Shown here piece by piece: positions 21,501 to 24,500 of a DNA stretch of 64,000 bases; the stretch's first letter is position 1, and every line of letters starts with the position of its first letter. The notes beneath the pieces are model-generated. The model was not told the DNA's origin, made no database searches, and was given only the letters and a program-made list of their open reading frames with translations. Source of the stretch: Sinohyriopsis cumingii (lineage: Eukaryota; Mollusca; Bivalvia; Unionida; Unionidae). Both the position numbers and the translations under genes were made by a program. The stretch covers positions 744,001 through 808,000 of the forward strand of contig JAPYKE020000037.1 in NCBI GenBank assembly GCA_028554795.2. The letters are read 5' to 3'.

Positions 21501-24500
21501 TGAAGCATCTGCATGATCAAACTGTTGATTATTTAAATTTTTTAAAAATGGCATCCAGAAAGCGATGCATGTTATAGACGAAAAGTAAAATAAGCTTCTT
21601 GAAAAGTGTTAATAATCAACACAGAAGAATAAAATGGAGTATTCAGATTCTTGTGAATAAAAGCTGGAAAGGACACAGTTGCGTTTATTGGACTTCACAT
21701 GCCTATTTGATTATGTCTTGTGGTGGGAGATATGATTGGTGTTTTCATGTGAAATTGAAAAAGAATTTCCAAGAATTATGTCAAGTTGAGAGATAGCAAC
21801 AAGCCATTGAGTTGTATAGGGTTTGGAACTAAAGTTTGTGCAACTGTACTAGTGGTAAATAAAGTTTACGCATACTTTACAACAATTTCAGTTGAACATA
21901 ATGTTTATCATCGCTGTGTCAAACTTTTAATTACGTTTTCTGCTTTACAATGGCAGTTATTGATATTTTGTTTTACCTTACTGAAAACTGGTAATTCTAA
22001 CAAAAAAAATCAACTGCCTTGCTGAGGTGGACTTGTCAGGGTTGGCAGGTCTGCCATTGTTTCATAAAGGCTGTTGCTAGTGTGTATTACACTAAGCTGA
22101 TATTTAGAAGACTTGTTTTTAAAAAAAATTGCTCATCTAATTTTGACCAGTTTTTGTTAAAAGCATGATATGGCTGCTAGACGTGTATTAGGCAGGTAAG
22201 TAATCTTAGGCTCACTTTGGACTCTTGTTTAAAATTCCACTGAAACAGTATTGCTATGTGCAGCATAGAATTTAGTAGAATGTATCCTAAATCGTTGTGC
22301 ATTGTAATTTTCCTCTTGCATGTGATGCTATTTGCATTGATCACCTACTGATTCTTGGGGATGTAGGAAGGACTCTGGCCGGGCGATACTACCAGCACAT
22401 TTTGTGGAACTCCAAATTACATTGCACCAGAAATTCTTCGAGGGGAAGATTATGGTATGTTCATTATGAGCTGAATTGATTCAGTTTAGTTTAGCAGGTT
22501 ATTAACTGATTGTTGTTCGAGATGTACACTGAAAACTTTCTTCCCATGTGTATAAACATGTCCTGGTATCCCATTAAAATCAAATCTTCTTACACCCCTT
22601 CAAATCTAAATGTAATATCCTGTAGATATAATTTTGGAATATGCTTTATTCTTAAAATTGATTTCATTTTGACTTGGGCAGAAGGTTTATGGTTTATTTC
22701 TTTGGATTTTGTACTTTGAAATAAGGATACAAATGCTTAAGCACATTGTTTGCATGAAAGCTTTCATTTTTGTTTCCCTACTTGGTAACTTTTTTCGCCC
22801 CAAAACTCTACTTCCTTTCTGTTTGTTTCCTTTTGAATATATAAAATACTTTCATGCTTAAATCTCCTTGCATTCCAATATCAAGTAAGCTATTCAAGGT
22901 AAAAGGGCATTTTCCCAGAGATTCGCAAATACATTAACAGGACTAAATATTAGCTTCCTATGTGCCATATGTGTGTCCTTGTTTCATATGGTTTATCACC
23001 TTTCTATTATGCAATATTCTGAAACTAAATCATAAGATGTGTTTTTTTTTTCAGAGGAATATATGTAAATATGGGTCTGTTTGATTTAGTTTCAGTAATA
23101 TGACATTATTTATAAGGACTATTCCATTTAAACATACATGGTACCATGGGAAAGAACTTTAAAAAAAAATACATGCTGGGATACTCATATTGCCTAAAGA
23201 GTTCATATGAAAACAATAAAAAGTTATAAATGCATCTATGGGTGACTATTCTATAACACAAGTGCCTTCCCTAGCTTCCATGTATATTTTACTGGAACAG
23301 CCTTTTGACATTGATAACATTTTTTCTTTAATATGGATGCTTGTTACGGTCTTTTAATTATCATGTATGATTTAAATTGGAGAGAAAAAAGTGGTACAAG
23401 AATTATTTTCTTCTCATTTTACTAAACTTCCATGTTTTTTATCTGGAGACGTTTAAAATAAATTTCCTTTAGCCATTATTATGGAAAATACAATATTTAT
23501 ATATCTTCTTTAGGTCCGATTCAGCATAATGCTTAATGTACCACTTTAAAAAAAATTGAATTTCCTCTGAGGTGAAAAGCAGAGAAAAATTTAAGGAAAA
23601 AATTAAAAGCAAGCTTTCATGCTTTCATATTAAAGAAAACCATATACCCATTTAATTATATAGTTACCATGGTAACTGAAAAATTATTGTTTTATTTTGT
23701 TCCTCTTGCTTTATACTGACAGGAGGGTCTTGGGCCAGGAGAGTTTACTTGCACATTTTGTGGAACACCAAATTACATTGCTCCCGAGGTTCTTCGTGGA
23801 GAGGAGTATGGTAGATAATGAATCAATGAGCTGGCCTGCTATGCTTGACACATTTCATATCGCATAAAATGCATTTACCTATATATGTAGAGGATTTCAC
23901 AGGACATCAGTTTTGACATGTAGATCGTAATTTACAAATATCGCTTGCAATAAATATAGTTGACCAGACTTGAGATAACAATGACTTTATTATTGTGAGT
24001 ATTTTCTTAAAAAGCAGGAATTTTATTTTAAAACAAATATGTCATATCTAAAATGAGAATTATTGTATCCAGCAAAGATTGCTTATAATGTTTAACAGGG
24101 GACTGGGATTGTAGAATGTTATAACCAAGAAAGGTTATACCCTAATTCATCGTTTTTATGTTGTTTTTTTAAAAATGTTTATGTACTTGTCCATGTTGAC
24201 GACATTGGACGTATAAGTAGCAAAAATTTATACTGGCATGATTATGTCCAGAACTCGCAATGCAGTGGTAATATATTTTCAGAAAACATACATTTGTAAA
24301 AATACATTTTATCGTGGAATAAAACCAAGAGGAACTAGTAAGCTTTAACATCCAATGAAAGCATCAACATTCATTTACATGTTCTAATTGGTGAATAATA
24401 ACAATACTTTTTGTGTGAAAATGTAATTTTTCAGTAATTTAATGACTAATTAATTAGTCCTTTATTTATTGTCATTAGCCATGTTTTTAATTTTATTAAT

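Follow-up and report, generated by a model that had tools for sequence, protein, structure and literature searches.

The window analysed here is a stretch of 64,000 nucleotides from the freshwater mussel Sinohyriopsis cumingii (positions 744001 to 808000 of contig JAPYKE020000037.1, hereafter C37), and it carries the kinase exons of an atypical protein kinase C (aPKC) gene that spans about 89 kb in total and encodes PB1, pseudosubstrate, C1 and kinase domains. A tblastn search with the aPKC of the clam Mercenaria (P0123) places the start exon and the PB1 exons at C37:704702-708761, with 57 to 83% identity, so that the PB1 call denotes similarity to this protein rather than a match to the Pfam PB1 model. 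The same clam protein locates a motif at C37:719883-719981 that we take to be the pseudosubstrate, and the C1 domain extends from C37:724533 onward (PF00130, E 9.3e-12). Within the window, all kinase exons lie on the + strand. In-silico splicing and tblastn define an exon with the hinge end and the glycine-rich loop (IGRGSYAKV) at 12408..12572, two further kinase exons at 13139..13236 and 14019..14155, and another at 34912..34991. The exon at 16768..16853 encodes YRDLKLDN and DYG and is the final one upstream of two alternative exons, a (22367..22454) and b (23723..23810). The first exon downstream of them lies at 34368..34493, a kinase and C-tail exon (LTPDD) at 36181..36386, and the terminal coding exon, which runs to the stop, at 49518..49605. 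In this last exon an acidic residue replaces the Ser/Thr of the hydrophobic motif (FEGFEY type), a mark of aPKCs.

With either alternative exon, the window yields 357 kinase codons and one terminal stop, and both versions match the kinase domain and C-tail models (PF00069 and PF00433). Among solved structures, version b is matched best by PKC iota (E 2.6e-198; PKC beta, 1.1e-119), and the nearest proteins among the best 120 matches listed are those of two clams, Mercenaria (90%) and Mactra (89%). This aPKC locus is the only one seen in the 2.9-Gb genome among the 74 of 412 candidates of the P0123 search that were scored: four on C37 (63-93% identity) belong to the gene, and the remaining 70, with 28-55% identity, match kinases. 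A genome search with the exon a peptide finds three places, namely a, b and a segment on another contig, C17 (59% over 27 residues), which is probably part of another PKC-like kinase. As a separate observation, 59 of the 74 scored matches, with nearly equal scores, lie on contigs C2 (2.64-2.78 Mb), C193 and C603 (including L018-L033). Most of them have a 459-aa open frame and many are about 7.7 kb apart; these are tandem arrays of a kinase gene that is open along its length. The frame of one member, L024, matches general kinase models in Pfam and looks MNK-like.

Exons a and b encode alternative versions of the activation loop, including APE. Each is 88 nt long and runs from phase 0 to phase 1, with splice sites AG/GAAG and ATG/GTATGT for a and AG/GAGG and ATG/GTAGAT for b, and a GT-AG intron of 1268 nt (22455..23722, + strand) separates them. 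The two versions share 23 of 29 residues and differ at positions 4, 7, 8 and 10, before Thr 11, at position 23, after APE, and at position 28; relative to the loop Thr, the nearby differences fall at -7, -4, -3 and -1. Thr 11, which we take to be the PDK1 site, is alike in both versions, as is the core around it. At the nucleotide level there are 20 differences, 13 silent and 7 nonsynonymous, with 15 at third positions. A preliminary description of this DNA had reported the coordinates, length, phase, splice dinucleotides, spacing, identity and difference counts of the pair, and all are confirmed here. It had further proposed that the frame admits only one exon or the other, which in-silico splicing bears out: either exon alone restores the complete kinase frame, whereas inclusion of both brings a stop after residue 220 and skipping of both a stop after residue 165.

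Its claim that selection acts on both copies also holds up. By the NG86 method, dS between a and b is 1.14 and dN is 0.117, giving a dN/dS of about 0.10. When one copy was left free of constraint in simulation, as few nonsynonymous changes together with no stop were seen in 0.145% of 20,000 runs (P=0.0015), and when both copies were left free, none of the runs had so few nonsynonymous changes. Read from the sequences, this argues that neither exon copy has been free of constraint. The same codon is used at 10 of the 23 shared residues, compared with 8.8 expected at saturation from the gene's own codon use; thus silent sites look saturated and the duplication appears old. No similarity between the flanks of a and b was seen outside the exons, save chance words of 11-14 nt, and tblastn with four versions of the segment as queries revealed no third copy in the window, the other matches having E values of 0.06 or worse.

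The middle of the exon stands apart in one respect. Over residues 11-19 (22397-22423 and 23753-23779), the copies differ at only 1 of 27 bases. Codons are identical for 8 of the 9 residues there and for 2 of the 14 outside it (P for the best window, 0.020 under saturation and 0.008 by permutation). An RNA element common to both exons or a short conversion tract could explain this, but the pattern was noticed by inspection and is no more than suggestive.

Further features lie around the pair. In the intron after exon b, an open frame of 965 aa at 25211-28108 encodes a reverse transcriptase domain (PF00078, E 4.1e-24). Repetitive stretches at 4181-4918, 48198-48566 and 51774-52437 are open over 120-245 codons and are probably simple minisatellites. 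The acceptor at 34368 had been placed correctly by the preliminary description, which did not mention a partial tandem copy of it upstream: 34191..34233 (+ strand) repeats the acceptor and the initial 43 nt of the exon. The copy belongs to a tandem duplication at 34087-34410 with a spacing of 177 bp, in which 147 aligned bases show 11 differences; every one of these is intronic, and the 43 exonic bases are identical (Fisher P 0.034). If the upstream acceptor were used, it would lead to a premature stop.

Counterparts of both versions occur in other molluscs. Three protein searches, each represented by its best 120 matches (of 1257, 5115 and 2715 proteins), together gave 287 different proteins, six of which lack the loop pattern. 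They are a non-random sample in which many rows are vertebrate PKC zeta and a few proteins carry two segments. Because matches were clustered at 90% identity and only the best 120 were listed, the two isoform types of a species in most cases share a cluster, and the lack of a second type in a species is therefore no evidence of its absence. Residue 23 is Ile in 248 of the 283 listed segments, Met in 23 and Val in 12. The Val rows are Mercenaria X2, Gigantopelta X2, Babylonia X2, Saccostrea echinata X3, Littorina, Mytilus californianus X2, Mytilus coruscus, Aplysia X1, Pomacea X2 and Pinctada, together with two unnamed proteins, P0135 and P0149; hence, among the matches listed, 10 of 10 named V23 rows are molluscan, and the corresponding motif APEVLRG, a mark of b, is likewise confined to molluscs among the named proteins. 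V23 is absent from the matches listed for Lingula and for the annelids Paralvinella, Lamellibrachia, Ridgeia and Helobdella, each annelid being represented by a single row.

Since we define class b by V23, this residue is not independent evidence for the class. The b class comprises 11 rows (the ten named proteins and exon b of the window), to be compared with 20 molluscan a rows. Asn occupies position 10 in 10 of 11 b rows and in 0 of 20 a rows; for Lys or Arg at position 8, the counts are 9 of 11 and 0 of 20, respectively. The chiton Liolophura (P0138), with TTNT and M23, and the cephalopod Argonauta (P0258), with ETNT, I23 and EPY, were not counted among the a rows, since they belong clearly to neither type; their loops mix features of a and b, so the history in those two classes of molluscs may differ.

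Pairs of isoforms within one species are especially telling. Isoforms X1 and X2 of the snail Gigantopelta aegis differ at 5 of 587 residues and those of the mussel Mytilus californianus at 4 of 596, every difference falling within the activation-loop segment. The unnamed proteins P0006 and P0149 differ from each other at the four residues that distinguish the Mytilus isoforms and at two more near residue 71. P0149 and P0135 are full-length b-type proteins, and the contigs that encode P0006, P0149 and P0135 (2416, 2593 and 2100 nt) are too short for a gene of tens of kb and thus probably represent transcripts. In the pearl oyster Pinctada imbricata, the model P0232 contains in order an a-type copy, an out-of-frame stretch and a b-type copy, and the middle stretch, read in another frame, is compatible with the loop exon pattern (EGL..G[DE].T[SN]...) at every position. 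This gene model implies that a gene finder forced three tandem exons into one transcript, in which case Pinctada would have the same a-before-b order as the window and one more copy. Repeated segments in two other models, Popillia P0003 and Cyprinodon P0231, are identical repeats and were discarded as gene-model or assembly artefacts. Each of the four within-gene pairs compared (the window, Gigantopelta, M. californianus, and the first and last copies of Pinctada) differs at positions 4, 8, 10 and 23. Among the matches listed, Aplysia is represented by a b-type record (P0152) and Lymnaea by an a-type one (P0142). The second exon copy that the preliminary description suggested seeking in other molluscs has its counterparts in the isoform pairs of Gigantopelta and M. 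californianus and in the implied array of Pinctada.

One part of that description is not supported. It had read the pair as a switchable activation loop that parallels the vertebrate kinases, with the Gly and EEY of version b as in PKC zeta and the EDY of version a as in PKC iota. The duplicated aPKC activation-loop exons, a frame that allows only one or the other and selection on the pair are supported, but the parallel with zeta and iota is not, because these residues do not mark the b class. Position 4 in the 11 b rows is Trp in three, Val in two, Leu in two, and Ile, Phe, Met and Gly in one each; the only Gly is that of the window's own exon b, and Gly occurs in 4 of 20 a rows. Position 28 can be Asp or Glu in either class, and the V23, N10 and K/R8 of b rows are found in none of the zeta rows listed. 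We therefore reject homology of b with zeta and of a with iota, and the resemblance of the window's exon b to zeta is, judging from these residues, most likely a coincidence in one species.

Taken together, exons a and b very probably represent a tandem exon duplication in a bivalve aPKC gene, with splicing admitting one of the two into the mRNA, and the pair is most likely a set of ancient molluscan mutually exclusive exons. For S. cumingii itself, we infer from the reading frame and from relatives that both exons are used, and used exclusively of each other. The age of exon b is the point at which this reading faces its most serious rival, that the window's b arose by an independent, lineage-specific duplication and acquired V23 by convergence. 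Exon b has V23 but C10 and F8, and so lacks the N10 and K/R8 of other b rows; its C10 is shared with Mytilus a and Paralvinella. A free tree of the 29 residues gives it a long end branch (0.51) and joins it weakly to Paralvinella; the other ten b rows group at 93/89 with Argonauta among them. Independent origins of this kind have a precedent, as exon pairs of mrp-1 arose separately in several phyla according to one study (PMC7434440). The few columns of the 29-residue tree allow no decisive test: p-AU is 0.458 for placing the window's b with other b exons and 0.51 for placing it with its own exon a, 0.697 for uniting the remaining ten b rows in one clade, and 0.175, 0.34 and 0.167 for within-species pairing in Gigantopelta, Mytilus and Pinctada. 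Common descent of b thus rests on shared residues, exon order, Mercenaria and saturation. Silent sites look saturated and no flank similarity is left, the a-then-b order is that of Pinctada, and the b-type sequence of Mercenaria, the best protein match listed, carries V23, N10 and EEY. On these sequence grounds, the window's exon b appears to share descent with other molluscan b exons, and we consider an independent origin unlikely, though it deserves real weight.

Far less probable is that exon b serves mainly as a poison element, whose inclusion along with a would shift the frame and lower aPKC through mRNA decay, with b-only kinase a minor product. The a+b product does stop early, as such an element would need; however, a poison exon has no need of a conserved frame, yet b keeps 23 of 29 residues with mostly silent change, and named b-only isoforms exist in relatives. 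It is also very improbable that the segment differences in relatives reflect two genes rather than splicing. The isoform labels there are the source's own names, which leaves some room for this possibility, but in Gigantopelta, as in M. californianus, the two isoforms match fully except in the segment and are listed with a contig of the same size, the Pinctada copies lie in one model, and a single aPKC locus was seen in S. cumingii among the candidates scored. Finally, that exon b is an unused relic left intact by chance is barely credible: its weak donor (0.82 on a rough matrix) would fit, but exon 14019-14155 of the same gene has an equally weak one (0.79), the simulation with one unconstrained copy speaks against it, and b-type proteins occur in bivalves and gastropods alike.

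How might exclusive choice be enforced if a and b are mutually exclusive exons? The donors, GTATGT for a and GTAGAT for b, and the 1268-nt spacer make a U2/U12 clash or too short an intron an unlikely cause. The remaining route would be regulated silencing combined with quality control of the frame, in which transcripts with both exons or neither would be frameshifted and removed by nonsense-mediated decay. By rough measures, the pyrimidine tract of exon a is the poorest of nine exons scored and the donor of b is among the weakest. A crude scan for competing RNA pairing gave nothing convincing. Six pairs of flanks had z values of -1.3 to +1.5. Blocks from the upstream intron and from both ends of the downstream intron (its first 1.3 kb and its final 2 kb) had best energies within or near those of five shuffles; the exception was the final 2 kb paired with the sequence preceding b (-89.1; shuffles, -81.5 to -84.9).

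The choice of a or b would most likely be between two active kinases rather than between an active and a dead form. Because both versions have the same Thr 11 and core and similar scores against the Pfam kinase model (217.3 and 218.7 bits), both should be active, PDK1-primed kinases. They may differ in loop priming and in the docking partner beside the phosphorylated Thr. In AlphaFold 3 models of the Aplysia kinase, the phospho-Thr and the following Phe contact the inhibitory arm of Par3 and KIBRA, and the contact also involves Y32 and W65 as well as two acidic residues where helix C begins, D59 and D62 (PMC13282866). The Lys/Arg at -3 and Asn at -1 of b-type loops (Phe and Cys in S. cumingii) would adjoin this contact, and our proposal is therefore that exon choice tunes how the loop is primed and what it docks. 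By this analogy with Aplysia, it is about an even question whether docking is the main effect.

Such a switch could matter for cell polarity, which aPKC sets, and for memory, since two reports tie PKM Apl III, the cleaved form in Aplysia, to memory maintenance (PMC7104321, PMC3517905). It is conceivable, though we would put it at slightly under an even chance, that molluscs have kept an aPKC loop splice switch since before the split of bivalves and gastropods, providing two polarity and memory kinases with different priming or Par3/KIBRA-type docking, and that the memory aPKC of Aplysia is perhaps one of two versions. If this is true, one invertebrate gene yields two kinases through the loop that carries the PDK1 site, and antibodies, constructs and phosphosite data from molluscs may cover just one version.

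Alternative splicing of molluscan aPKC is known from Aplysia PKC Apl III and from Helix, but there it concerns a hinge insert with a calpain site and a deletion in the C1 domain, respectively, and the accessible parts of these reports describe no choice of activation loop (PMC5650170, PMC6539039). We found no description of an aPKC activation-loop exon pair in the open-access literature, as far as its available text extends. The a/b pair is thus apparently undescribed there, although the source annotation already lists such isoforms; exon pairs of this kind are known, but the place of this one is unusual. Vertebrates also have two aPKCs whose activation segments differ slightly, PRKCI and PRKCZ, but these are two genes. 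Exons 6a and 6b of the JNK genes (MAPK8/9/10) are mutually exclusive and, like a and b, lie in a Ser/Thr kinase domain, but they are 3' of the activation segment and affect substrate choice. The tandem exons of FYN (FynB/FynT) resemble a and b in being homologous kinase exons used one or the other, with the difference confined to the segment, but they encode the SH2-kinase linker and the N-terminal part of the kinase with the ATP site, whereas a and b belong to a molluscan AGC kinase and encode its activation segment (PMC9741552). A pair shared by several invertebrate phyla is that of coq-2 in helminths, annelids and molluscs, whose exons 6a and 6e are mutually exclusive, equal in length and not found in mammals, and alter an enzyme core; that enzyme is a prenyltransferase with its function shown in C. 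elegans (PMC7434440), whereas b-type aPKC loops are found only in molluscs among the named rows listed.
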